Source: Muribaculaceae bacterium (GTDB taxonomy: Bacteria; Pseudomonadota; Alphaproteobacteria; Rs-D84). From it: a stretch of 5,590 nucleotides of DNA. Shown piece after piece: positions 959-2,810 of this stretch (the first letter of the stretch is position 1; each line of letters opens with the position of its first letter). Under the pieces are notes generated by a model, which had not been told where the DNA came from, searched no databases, and saw nothing but the letters and a program-made list of their open reading frames with translations. The stretch lies in assembly GCA_023665245.1 (NCBI GenBank), contig JAMPEH010000169.1, forward strand, positions 1 through 5,590, written 5' to 3'. A program made the position numbers and the translations under genes.

Positions 959-1909
959 ATGGCGAGAACACGCAATGAAGCGGATATCCTGCTCGGATTG
1001 AAGTACGACAAACAAATACACAGGCTCAATGATCATGATTTGGCGGCATTGGTACGCGCCATCTATGACATGCGTCTCAGGGGATCGACCGACGAGCAAA
1101 TGACTCCTCAGGCAGAAATGCTCTTCAGCATTGTCTACGACGAAGTAGAAGAGAATGCAGAGAACTACGAACAGATAAAAGCCGAGAGGTCCAAAGCAGC
1201 CAATGCACGCTGGGAGAAAGTACGAGCCAGCAAAGCAGCCAATGCACATGAATCCGTAGCAACCGATCCGCAGATACGGAATGCAAGCGGCCAGAGTGAA
1301 CCGGCTGATATGCAAACGATGCAAATGCATGCAAACGATGCACGTGCATCAAGTGACATGCAAACGATGCAAACGATGCTAATAGATAAGATAGGAGTGG
1401 ATAGGAATAGATCTGATTTATTACCCCCTACTAGTTCTAACGAACTAGTATCCCCCCTAGGGGGCGAAGTGCCTGCTTCCGATCCCGAACCGCCTGAACC
1501 AGTTGCAGACGAGAAACCAAAGCCTCGACGGAAAAATTCCGCTGGACTCACGAAGGCGCAGGAAGCTCGCTTTGATCGCTGGTACGACGCATACCCGAAG
1601 AAGGTAGCACCTGGCGAAGCTCAGAAGGCATGGAAACGGCTTGATCCAGACGACCAGCAAACCGAGGTCATGATTCGGGCTGTTCAGACACAGCTGGAAA
1701 AGGATCGCAGATTTACCGAAGGCTACATCCCGAATCCAGCAACATGGCTGAATCGCCGCGAATGGGAAAACAATTACGATGGGCTGTCTGCGCCCACGCA
1801 GAACACGCAAAGGAGGCCGATGAACAATGACGCAACCGACTGGGGAGCATATGTGCGAGAGCACCCAGAAGTCCTCGACGGAGACGACGCGGACGCTGCG
1901 CCGACTTGA
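959..1909 (+). CDS. Phage replisome organiser / replication initiation protein (DUF6291-type N-terminus, O-like C-terminus)
   Basis: This 316-residue protein has the two-domain plan of many phage replication organisers. The N-terminal part (about residues 1-90: NEADILLGLKY, LVRAIYDMRL, MLFSIVYDEVEENAENYE, then ERSKAANARWEKVR) resembles the DUF6291 family found next to phage helicase loaders. A low-complexity linker (about 91-195) contains SKAANA and MQTMQ repeats and a Pro/Glu-rich part. The C-terminal domain (about 203-272) has FDRWYDAYPKKVAPGEAQKAW and YIPNPATWLNRREWEN, a signature common in replication proteins that pair with DnaC-like loaders. Its likely job is to bind the origin and recruit the loader-helicase complex. 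The linker DNA carries a repeat array that I read as the origin. The last 83 bases overlap the next gene, whose AGGAGG lies inside this one. The family reading is by recognition, not by a search. Confidence 0.82.
   Translation: MARTRNEADILLGLKYDKQIHRLNDHDLAALVRAIYDMRLRGSTDEQMTPQAEMLFSIVYDEVEENAENYEQIKAERSKAANARWEKVRASKAANAHESVATDPQIRNASGQSEPADMQTMQMHANDARASSDMQTMQTMLIDKIGVDRNRSDLLPPTSSNELVSPLGGEVPASDPEPPEPVADEKPKPRRKNSAGLTKAQEARFDRWYDAYPKKVAPGEAQKAWKRLDPDDQQTEVMIRAVQTQLEKDRRFTEGYIPNPATWLNRREWENNYDGLSAPTQNTQRRPMNNDATDWGAYVREHPEVLDGDDADAAPT
1192..1247 (+). repeat. 17-base direct repeat, two copies, inside the replication organiser gene
   Basis: CAAAGCAGCCAATGCAC occurs at 1192-1208 and again at 1231-1247, 39 bases apart start to start, in the same frame, and encodes the repeated peptide SKAANA. 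The repeat ends in AATGCAC, related to the ATGCA core of the downstream array, so these may be outlying binding sites. A duplication selected only at the protein level is the alternative. Confidence 0.6.
1310..1380 (+). repeat. Iteron-like array: four copies of ATGCAAACGATGCA
   Basis: The 14-mer ATGCAAACGATGCA occurs at 1310-1323, 1329-1342 and 1358-1371, with a fourth copy at 1367-1380 that overlaps the third and ends in T. The finer unit is a 9-mer, ATGCAAACG, arranged in doublets 9 bases apart (1310/1319, 1329/1338, 1358/1367/1376), some units degenerate. The core ATGCA also appears upstream at 1155, 1203, 1242 and 1281, outside the array. The array encodes MQTMQ-type residues in the protein linker. 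Repeats of this kind inside a phage initiator gene are typical binding sites for that initiator. Confidence 0.72.
1337..1350. repeat. 14-bp perfect palindrome inside the iteron array
   Basis: GATGCACGTGCATC is its own reverse complement and is centred on CACGTG. It overlaps the end of the second 14-base iteron, so one TGCAT half-site faces the opposite direction to the other units. It may be a dimer-binding site within the origin. Confidence 0.5.
1429..1450. repeat. Perfect 9-bp inverted repeat with 4-base loop after the AT-rich segment
   Basis: TACTAGTTC (1429-1437) and GAACTAGTA (1442-1450) flank the loop TAAC. The flanking CCCCC (1424-1428) can pair with GGGGG (1460-1464), which would extend the structure with a 9-base bulge on one side. 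It occupies the place of the palindrome in the lambda origin. It lies mid-gene, so it is not an operon-end terminator. Confidence 0.65.
1453..1464. repeat. 12-bp GC palindrome CCCCCTAGGGGG
   Basis: This perfect palindrome immediately follows the inverted repeat at 1429-1450. It has no loop, so as a single strand it would pair in competition with the CCCCC at 1424-1428 for the same G-run. It may be a protein site or part of a switchable structure at the right border of the putative origin. Confidence 0.5.
1811..1816 (+). promoter_or_regulatory. AGGAGG ribosome binding site inside the organiser gene for the helicase loader
   Basis: A full AGGAGG ends 10 bases before ATG 1827, inside the coding sequence of the organiser. 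It favours ATG 1827 over the in-frame ATG 1851, whose nearest GGGGAG is only 3 bases away. Confidence 0.65.
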
Positions 1910-2810
1910 TGGTGGAGTATTTCAGGACGTGCTTGTCGGCATCGTTGAGACACAGTGCGAAGTCAATGGCATTGCTGATCCCAGACGATTTCTTGACCCG
2001 GACAACGAGCCGAAGCCGGTGTCGTGTCCGCACTGCGGGGCGCCCATGCACCACCACAAGATCATGCAGGAGGACACGTTCGTCTGCTGGGTACCGATAC
2101 CGGGACCATGCGAAAATCCGGAGTGCCAGAGACTGGCCGCCGAGGAAAAGGCCCGCCGGGAGCATTGGGAGCGCGTGATGCAGTTCAAACAGGATCTTCC
2201 GAGGATTGGCATACCGCCGGAATATCTGGACGCGACATCGAAAAATTTCATGCTCGATGGGCCGCGTGCAAATCTCAAGAAGCCGCTGAAGATCGTGACG
2301 GATTATGCCAACAATTTCGCCGAAGGCCATGCGGACGGCAAGGGTCTGTATCTTTGCGGACCGTGGGGAAGCGGCAAAACGCACATGGCAGTGATCGCGG
2401 CACGTGGTGCACTGTGGCATGGACGCAAGGTGCGATTCGTAAGCTCGGTGGATCTGGTGCGGGAGCTGAAAGATTCTTTCGACCATGGCGGGACCGGAGA
2501 GACGATGGCGCCGTACAAAAACGCCACACTGCTGGTGATTGACGACATCGGCAAAGAATACGCATCGGCCATTGTCCTGAACATGCTGGCTGAGATCATC
2601 AGCACGAGATATGCCCACAGACGCCCTACGGTGTTCACCAGCAATTACATGCTCCGCACGGACAATCCAAACCAGATGGATCTGCAGGCGGCTCTCATGC
2701 GCCAGGGCGGTGGACTCGACAACGCCGGTGCAATCCTCAGCAGAATCAAATCACGCTGCAAGGTGGTGCCAGTGATCGCACCGGACTACCGGGAAGTGCA
2801 AGGAGTGTAG
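1827..2810 (+). CDS. dnaC: DnaC-like AAA+ ATPase, phage helicase loader
   Basis: This 327-residue cytoplasmic ATPase should load the replicative helicase at the origin together with the organiser encoded just upstream. The N-terminal part has a likely zinc-binding cluster: CPHC at 67-70, then C87, C95 and C100 with a stretch of histidines (75-77). The AAA+ core follows: Walker A GPWGSGKT at 178-185, Walker B LLVIDDIG at 235-242, a sensor-1-like TSN at 271-273, and a basic SRIKSR at 305-310 that fits the arginine finger/sensor-2 part of DnaC-family proteins. The length is somewhat longer than E. coli DnaC (about 245), the extra being at the N-terminus with the cysteine cluster. The start at ATG 1827 is chosen for its AGGAGG at 10 bases and overlaps the upstream gene by 83 bases. 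No DnaB-type helicase is in the window, so the partner is probably the host helicase or one encoded elsewhere. Confidence 0.88.
   Translation: MTQPTGEHMCESTQKSSTETTRTLRRLDGGVFQDVLVGIVETQCEVNGIADPRRFLDPDNEPKPVSCPHCGAPMHHHKIMQEDTFVCWVPIPGPCENPECQRLAAEEKARREHWERVMQFKQDLPRIGIPPEYLDATSKNFMLDGPRANLKKPLKIVTDYANNFAEGHADGKGLYLCGPWGSGKTHMAVIAARGALWHGRKVRFVSSVDLVRELKDSFDHGGTGETMAPYKNATLLVIDDIGKEYASAIVLNMLAEIISTRYAHRRPTVFTSNYMLRTDNPNQMDLQAALMRQGGGLDNAGAILSRIKSRCKVVPVIAPDYREVQGV

Follow-up and report, generated by a model that had tools for sequence, protein, structure and literature searches.

A candidate phage replication origin inside its own initiator gene, with a putative folded C-run and G-run element at its right edge

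Analysis of a 5590-nt stretch of DNA (contig JAMPEH010000169.1 of assembly GCA_023665245.1; hereafter the window, whose positions serve as coordinates throughout) identified an origin-like array within the coding sequence of a phage replication initiator. The initiator, or replisome organiser, is encoded by an open reading frame (ORF) of 316 residues at 959-1909 on the forward strand, and the array spans 155 nt of that gene (1310-1464), with four iterons, an A+T- and purine-rich tract and a fold-back element following one another in that order. An origin within the gene is the best reading of the array and is well supported by the sequence. Our specific proposal, which we hold at a probability of about 0.78, is that the array is a phage origin of replication lying within the gene of its own initiator, and that the C5-hairpin-C6-TA-G5 sequence at its right edge would work as a folded DNA element. 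The anatomy of this element, its recurrence in other initiator genes, its strand bias, its use of three reading frames and the matched lengths of its C-runs are direct observations.

The iterons are four forward-strand copies of the 14-mer ATGCAAACGATGCA, read in the sequence at 1310-1323, 1329-1342, 1358-1371 and 1367-1380, the fourth having one mismatch and a 5-bp overlap with the third. The copies fall in frames 0, 1, 0 and 0, encoding MQTM in one reading frame and ANDA in the other. Since two frames are used, it is the DNA that is repeated and not simply a peptide. Copies 1-3 contain the hyphenated dyad TGCA-N5-TGCA, and the iterons of lambda likewise have hyphenated symmetry, according to the available part of that source (PMC6022878). 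The 43-nt tract that follows (1381-1423), the presumed unwinding region, has an A+T content of 0.72 and a purine content of 0.67; only two of the 5548 43-nt stretches of the window, this one included, are as A+T-rich. Direct reading then gives a first run of five C residues (C5, 1424-1428), a spacer that is a perfect 9-bp inverted repeat with the loop TAAC (TACTAGTTC-TAAC-GAACTAGTA, 1429-1450, read and folded), a second run of six (C6, 1452-1457) and a run of five G residues (G5, 1460-1464), the last of which, together with TA and 1453-1457, forms the perfect 12-bp palindrome CCCCCTAGGGGG (1453-1464). An earlier note on this DNA had described four 14-base direct repeats, an AT-rich, purine-rich stretch of about 43 bases, a perfect 9-bp inverted repeat and a 12-bp GC palindrome. 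All of these were found, with the corrections to the repeats given above. The note overlooked C5, which belongs with the inverted repeat and the palindrome to a single element, C5, hairpin spacer, C6, TA and G5 (1424-1464).

The likelihood of these features arising by chance was scored on ORF 959-1909 with 2000 synonymous-codon shuffles and 1000 dinucleotide shuffles. Four 14-mers with at most one mismatch appeared in 15/2000 synonymous and 0/1000 dinucleotide shuffles, and the arrangement C5-n(0-2)-G5 in 37/2000 and 0/1000. A 9-bp inverted repeat with a loop of up to 10 nt appeared in 44/2000 and 8/1000, a slightly lenient comparison as the shuffles were scored minus their first 200 nt and the real gene whole. 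Single features of the array are thus unlikely but not extreme under the synonymous null, these figures being per feature and not joint. Predicted DNA folding of 1415-1470 exceeded that of every one of 200 shuffles for each of the two strands (z -3.6 and -4.0), and that of the iteron stretch (1305-1385) was not unusual (z -1.6). In the predicted fold of the upper strand the first C-run pairs with the G-run around the spacer hairpin, and the lower strand favours separate hairpins. By geometry, the two G-tracts and single C-tract of the lower strand could alternatively give a triplex or, together with RNA, a hybrid quadruplex.

A related element, with a short spacer (CCCCCC-TA/ATA/TTA-CCCCCC-n-GGGGG) and in most cases preceded by a purine-rich tract, is present in many further initiator genes of phages; we refer to it as the C-C-G element. 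A strict pattern for it (C4+ n TA n C4+: two C-runs of at least 4 on the coding strand, with a spacer of 1-7 nt that contains TA) was scored in genes sharing the C-terminal domain of the window initiator. A search with this domain, based on an alignment of 12 sequences, gave the best 80 viral and best 80 genome loci; the initiator ORF was identified in 137 of these 160 (23 were missed by the pattern used), and dereplication by shared 12-mers, with the window included, left 115 genes whose N-terminal parts form 20 clusters. The strict pattern was present on the coding strand of 32/115 genes (17/58 viral and 15/56 genome loci) versus 1/115 on the antisense strand, and in 1/294 other ORFs of at least 200 residues. 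Synonymous shuffles of the 115 genes had a mean of 2.8 and a maximum of 7 (200 rounds).

One of the 32 genes (L075) has the element in its C-terminal part, and position-specific counts were taken from the other 31, which are spread over 11 of the 20 N-terminal clusters. Purine content averaged 0.73 in the 40 nt preceding the element versus 0.57 in the genes; values of at least 65% were reached by 27/31 in these 40 nt, by 4/31 in the 25-65 nt after the element and by none of the 31 whole genes. The two C-runs were equal in length in 23/31 (permutation mean 9.8, with 0/20,000 permutations reaching the observed count; Spearman 0.81), and a G-run of at least 4 lay within 25 nt 3' or 15 nt 5' of the element in 25/31. 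Spacers included TA (7 genes), TTA (6) and TATAGT (4), and the frame after the first C-run was 2, 0 and 1 in 20, 7 and 4 genes, respectively. Proline codons were CCC in 76/100 cases inside the element versus 109/464 elsewhere in the same genes. The window has both companions of the C-runs, namely the adjacent G-run (G5) and the purine-rich tract upstream. Linkers rich in repeats are also common in this family: 85/115 genes have at least 20 nt of repeated 10-mers, and synonymous shuffling gave a mean of 33.0 and a maximum of 38 (20 rounds). The repeat arrays upstream of the C-terminal domain in L071, L037 and other loci are family-specific and each different, and could pair N-terminal domains with their DNA sites. 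In three loci (L042, L046 and L060) and in Faecalibacterium phage FP_Lagaffe (L364) the G-run lies 5' of both C-runs instead of 3'.

A second family, defined by a C-terminal domain with the motif LTTxGxQAQ, was chosen because its members surfaced in a DNA scan for the element. Among its best 80 loci the ORF was found in 65, and 44 genes were left after dereplication and removal of the scan contigs, near-identical genes on other contigs being retained. Two C-runs were present on the coding strand of 44/44 genes and on the antisense strand of one (shuffles: mean 10.7, maximum 19), and the strict TA form was present in 38/44, with none antisense (mean 3.2, maximum 9). The C-run lengths were equal in 40/44 (permutation mean 28.0; 0/20,000 as high), mostly as 6-6-6, the spacer was ATA in 36/44, and the three frames were used 34, 8 and 2 times. 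As this family was picked via the element, these counts speak to near-invariance within a family and not to frequency among phages.

The only close homologue of the window protein among the proteins searched was P0002, which is 62% identical. The two proteins share 59/70 residues over positions 1-70 and 25/83 over positions 71-153, and they agree at all 12 residues of LPPTSSNELVSP (155-166), encoded by nt 1421-1456, a stretch that takes in C5, the inverted repeat and most of C6. The identity of these residues, as compared with 25/83 in the linker that precedes them, fits a constraint at the level of the DNA, within the limits of a protein comparison with one homologue. P0002 also has two ANDR peptides, which are compatible at the protein level with the core GCAAACGAT. 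When viral and genome contigs were scanned with the window protein alone, no relative was found, and a scan with P0002 found one distant locus that was left out of the counts.

Ten named phages, a non-random sample chosen from tblastn matches, were also considered. Two C-runs within 8 nt were present in four of them: Pseudomonas phages phPA-G and phi1, FP_Lagaffe and Bordetella avium phage IFTN8. In phage D3, orf73 has no short-spacer form and contains CCCCC-TGAAA-CTGTTCC-TTC-GGAACAG-ATTTCCG-CCCCCC-A-GGGGG after a purine-rich tract. This is the long-spacer order of the window, C-run, inverted repeat, C-run and G-run, although the inverted repeat is of another sequence and has 7-bp arms. The product of orf73 is annotated as a replication initiation protein, a DnaB-like helicase gene lies downstream of it, and no origin feature is annotated in the stretch of D3 that was examined. 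Phages phi1 and phPA-G (short spacer) and D3 (hairpin spacer) all belong to Detrevirus. Because D3-like phages show either form, we regard the hairpin spacer as a variant of the short one, with the window and D3 as its only two instances. A C-run, a spacer with arms of at least 7 bp, a second C-run and a G-run otherwise occurred, among 451 loci excluding the window, only in L243, L323, L332 and L340, none of which was recognised as an initiator gene. A pattern for the hairpin-spacer element of the window itself had no match in viral contigs, and the inverted repeat searched alone was found in four contigs, where its flanks have no C-runs.

The range of the element was also assessed by scanning viral DNA with the pattern CCCCCHWACCCCCCN{2,12}GGGG. 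This gave at least 80 loci, of which the even-numbered half (40) was annotated. The element lay in an ORF matching a replication-initiation, primosomal or similar PHROG (E <=1e-5) in 22/40; a further 13 ORFs had no such match (some resemble initiator fragments, which were not counted) and 5 loci had no ORF of 100 residues. Among 68 ORFs of at least 100 residues, Pfam matches (E 0.001) were to HTH_36 (11), DUF1376 (8), DUF6291 (2) and Phage_rep_O (1), and the element therefore accompanies several kinds of initiator. Genomes were scanned with the pattern CCCCCHWACCCCCN{2,12}GGGG, one place per genome being examined and the ORFs judged by reading. The pattern was present in 26/297 genomes of one bacterial family and 6/47 of one genus. 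Domain searches with four initiator-like ORFs found HTH_36 with DUF6017 in two, DUF1376 in one and DUF6291 with a DnaB_2 C-terminal domain in one, so that a DUF6291 initiator with another named C-terminal domain carries the short-spacer form. Four loci from genomes of the bacterial family (L316-L319) have CCCCCAAACCCCC or CCCCCCAACCCCCC with a G-run in the linker, and the two of these loci that were scanned encode the proteins with HTH_36 and DUF6017, which we take to be initiators of plasmids or integrative elements. Based on these loci, the range of the element may extend past phages. Repeats of the CCCCCTAACCCCCTTCCCCGAAGGGG type occur many times in each of two single bacterial genomes (G311 and G283) and are probably a different phenomenon with a similar pattern.

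Based on these observations, we propose the following mechanism, every functional step of which we infer. Copies of the DUF6291 domain would bind the four iterons, and the complex so formed would open the tract at 1381-1423, by analogy with lambda and SPP1; iteron binding with opening of an adjacent A+T-rich tract is the natural reading because of the precedents set by these phages in the portions of the sources available (PMC5043065, PMC6316719, PMC6022878). The C-terminal domain would recruit the DnaC-like loader encoded next door, which would put the helicase on the opened strands. The C5-hairpin-C6-TA-G5 element would close the opened region on the right, presumably with a fold-back or G-tract structure forming beside the unwinding region. 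In single-stranded or supercoiled DNA the G-run could pair with either C-run, and the spacer hairpin would bring the C-runs together, such that the element may work as folded DNA and represent a version of the short-spacer C-C-G form seen in the initiator genes of other phages. Its candidate roles are a barrier, a structure that keeps the strands apart, or a site of transcription or R-loop formation. The element recurs with different initiators, and for this reason is more likely to be read by the host machinery or through its own structure than by the initiator. A folded form is favoured by the matched run lengths and by the fact that a hairpin is tolerated between the runs.

A more general version of this proposal can be advanced only tentatively. 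It is possible that many phage in-gene origins share a module of purine-rich tract, matched C-run pair and G-run that is read by the host or by structure, independently of the family of the iteron-binding domain, and in which a folded element (G-tract, triplex or alternative hairpin) or a transcription-coupled R-loop would open or prime the origin, in convergence with the mitochondrial conserved sequence block 2 (CSB-2). As the window and D3 show the run pair split by a hairpin, it would be the folded form, and not the linear site, that matters.

Several observations weigh against the proposal. The strict pattern is absent from 83/115 genes of the first family, the window among them, as its own spacer is 23 nt long. 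The length of the G-run is only weakly related to that of the C-runs (rho 0.28, p 0.16), and fold-back scores in the relatives are only moderately raised (37/115 versus a mean of 10.6). Pairs of the form C5..G5 occur in 20/115 genes on the sense and 20/115 on the antisense strand, a self-complementary pattern that carries no strand information. In each family a single frame predominates, and shared ancestry or coding constraint thus plays a part. At least three copies of a 14-mer were obtained in 369/2000 synonymous shuffles of the window gene, and part of the 14-mer repetition can therefore be peptide-derived. Paired C-runs are absent from six of the ten named phages (SfV, Tritos, Cy-LDV1, psageB2, AbTJ and JonJames) and from lambda O and TP901-1 rep. 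Nor is the bare pattern restricted to origins: initiator-like genes account for 22/40 of the places in the viral scan and for 7/26 (family) and 3/6 (genus) of those examined in genomes, the remainder in genomes being dispersed repeats, intergenic places, antisense matches or other ORFs. In the whole-genome scans the loose pattern is rich in background, and even the strict one picks out some dispersed repeats and intergenic sites.

A third family provided a further point of this kind. It too was picked via the element, and comprised 59 ORFs from 79 loci (20 were missed and one scan contig was excluded), or 21 after dereplication. Only 3/21 (L453-L455, which encode similar proteins) have the element, with two antisense occurrences of any two C-runs and shuffles giving a mean of 1.9 and a maximum of 7. 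Most of the other 18 genes have in its place an alternative G+C-rich stretch, often GGCGCATCGGCTGACGCC-like, in which inverted-repeat arms can be seen by eye. In L457-L531 the recurring GGCGCATCGGCTGACGCC-like stretch that replaces the C-C-G element stands before the YP.R motif. The presence of the element within this family does not track the C-terminal domain. We take the family to be mainly from enterobacterial phages, since SfV and mEp460 match the same C-terminal domain. A G+C-rich fold-back beside an A+T-rich tract may be the more general rule, of which the C-C-G form is one version.

The strand bias of the strict pattern (32 sense versus 1 antisense) would also suit a transcription-coupled site, at which lower-strand G-tracts would form an RNA:DNA hybrid quadruplex or an R-loop and thereby open or prime the origin, a mechanism proposed for the mitochondrial CSB II. 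We consider this explanation, which bears on the element alone and is compatible with an in-gene origin, to be unlikely. The two matched tracts with a TA, TTA or ATA spacer resemble teleost CSB-2 (PMC3739747), the G-tracts of human CSB II fold in vitro into DNA, RNA and hybrid quadruplexes (PMC8780183), and the lambda origin requires transcription (PMC5043065), each as given in the accessible part of the source. However, an RNA that is G-rich would need to be transcribed antisense to the gene, and a simple sigma-70 scan of 650-2300 found no promoter-like site. In addition, CSB-2 as printed in the table of its source has no complementary G-run beside it, whereas the phage form usually has one (25/31), the C-runs of the window are 23 nt apart, and the CSB-2-like string is short and of low complexity.

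It is improbable that the iterons are an operator only, through which the protein would autoregulate its own operon, with the true origin elsewhere in the phage. Just 5.6 kb of the phage is seen, and the region before the initiator gene (681-958) has no matched gene, both of which speak for this reading. The array, however, lies some 350 bp into the gene, the simple scan gave no promoter-like site, and the iterons are followed by an A+T-rich tract and a C-C-G element, as in other initiator genes. A hairpin acting as an mRNA element, be it a terminator, pause or attenuator within the replication operon, would account for the strong fold (obtained with DNA parameters) and for the sense-strand bias, and is about as improbable: no T-run follows the hairpin on either strand, a terminator scan of 650-2300 gave two sites, neither of them here (shuffle mean 2.5), there was no Rfam match at the gathering score, and the loader gene downstream must be transcribed. 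We hold a proline-rich interdomain hinge (PPxPPxGG) with the DNA runs as its by-product to be improbable too, for although one frame per family holds most instances (20/31 and 34/44), with PPxPP-like peptides in a region that is modelled as a low-confidence linker, the element uses three frames and encodes peptides as different as TPPIPPAGG (L062), HPLTPAGG (L039) and NNPPTPLSEKRG (L013), its pattern is lost in synonymous shuffles, its C-run lengths match, and its proline codons are CCC at a frequency of 0.76 inside versus 0.23 outside.

The origin within the initiator gene, which we continue to prefer, is consistent with the domain layout of the protein. The identity of the initiator and of the adjacent loader gene was assigned by family match. 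ORF 959-1909, whose ATG at 959 is also the start of P0002, matches DUF6291 (E 8.9e-8, above the Pfam cut-off) and the PHROGs phrog_9474 and phrog_270 (replication initiation) and phrog_9327 (primosomal). The DUF6291 domain (residues 16-86, 1004-1216) is the presumed iteron-binding part, and the C-terminal domain (YPKK ... IPNPATWLN, 1556-1768), kept in the 12 aligned sequences including the window, would contact the helicase loader. An AlphaFold2 model from a 40-sequence alignment has two confident parts, one of them helical at about residues 11-100 and the other at about 200-270 (mean predicted local distance difference test score, pLDDT, of 80-96 in blocks over 201-270), with an overall predicted TM-score of only 0.36. 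Between them is a low-confidence linker (about residues 101-195, 1259-1543; mean pLDDT 38-61 in blocks of ten residues from 101 to 190), and the DNA that encodes it contains the whole set of iterons, A+T- and purine-rich tract, inverted repeat and GC palindrome, in agreement with the placement of the array in the linker-coding part of an initiator-like gene by the earlier note. Its assignment of the N-terminal domain to a family other than that of lambda also stood: DUF6291 was the only Pfam match at E up to 1, and Phage_rep_O, the N-terminal domain of lambda O, was not matched. NCBIfam gave no match for the initiator, and a fold search of the PDB gave none at E <0.001. A fold search of viral models gave 22 matches, 14 of which are named replisome organiser, helix-turn-helix (HTH), DUF6291 or DUF1376, with mostly low TM-scores. 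Given the empty PDB search and these scores, no DNA-binding fold is established for DUF6291.

The window as a whole has a G+C content of 0.55 and looks like a phage early operon. It begins with the end of a gene with a PHROG match to 'metal-dependent hydrolase', which is followed by an ORF with no match (E <=0.05), a stretch with no matched gene, the initiator gene, the gene for the DnaC-like helicase loader (1827-2810, forward strand; phrog_50, E 2e-46; IstB_IS21, E 2.5e-19), small ORFs and a cytosine methyltransferase gene. The stretch at 681-958, directly before the initiator gene, has no promoter-like site in the simple promoter scan.

Should the C-C-G element prove to be an origin module, it would aid the sequence-based location of origins in metagenomic phages whose initiators belong to several families. 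It also raises the question of why matched C-runs and a G-run should stand beside a presumed unwinding region, within a reading frame that accommodates them, in phages and prophages of Clostridia, Pseudomonas, Bordetella and others. Among the open-access literature matches listed, which were mostly titles and openings of abstracts, there was no report of the element in phage origins, and of the 19 papers that matched its DNA strings, 16 concern vertebrate mitochondrial DNA, judged by title or abstract, and none concerns phages.

The mitochondrial likeness is to teleost CSB-2, described as 'a poly-C stretch separated by TA or TTA' and belonging to a set of blocks with a presumed part in RNA-primer formation, and the core string of the short form of the C-C-G element is the same (PMC3739747, from the part of the source available). 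CSB-2 differs in being non-coding, in having no complementary G-run in the sequences printed in that part, and in belonging to an unrelated replicon, and the likeness is of a short string only, to the short-spacer form and not to the form of the window. We treat this resemblance as a lead only; with the same string present where mitochondrial replication is primed, a common physical mechanism deserves to be tested.

Closer comparisons are with phage origins. In lambda, four iterons within gene O are followed by a 39-bp A+T-rich region, with gene P next, according to the portion of the source available (PMC6022878). The window has this order, as the earlier note had recognised, of iterons, A+T- and purine-rich tract and fold-back in sequence, and a helicase-loader-like gene comes next. 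The label "lambda-like" given by that note holds for the order and the in-gene position. It does not extend to the element at the right edge, as lambda O has no C-run/C-run/G-run after its A+T-rich region, whereas many other phage initiator genes do. The window further differs from lambda in its protein (DUF6291 and another C-terminal domain in place of lambda O), in its repeats (14 versus 18 nt) and in the DnaC-like gene that follows. A reading of an in-gene origin in a non-lambda organiser as a new arrangement is not supported: the direct repeats of oriL to which gp38 of SPP1 binds lie within gene 38, adjoining an AT-rich unwinding element, as stated in the accessible part of that report (PMC6316719), such that gene 38 and the window share in-gene repeats and an A+T-rich tract in a non-lambda organiser. 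A putative lambda-like origin inside a replication gene has similarly been described for phage KIRK, in the part of the source available (PMC7924643). An origin within the initiator gene is therefore of a known kind, non-lambda organisers included.

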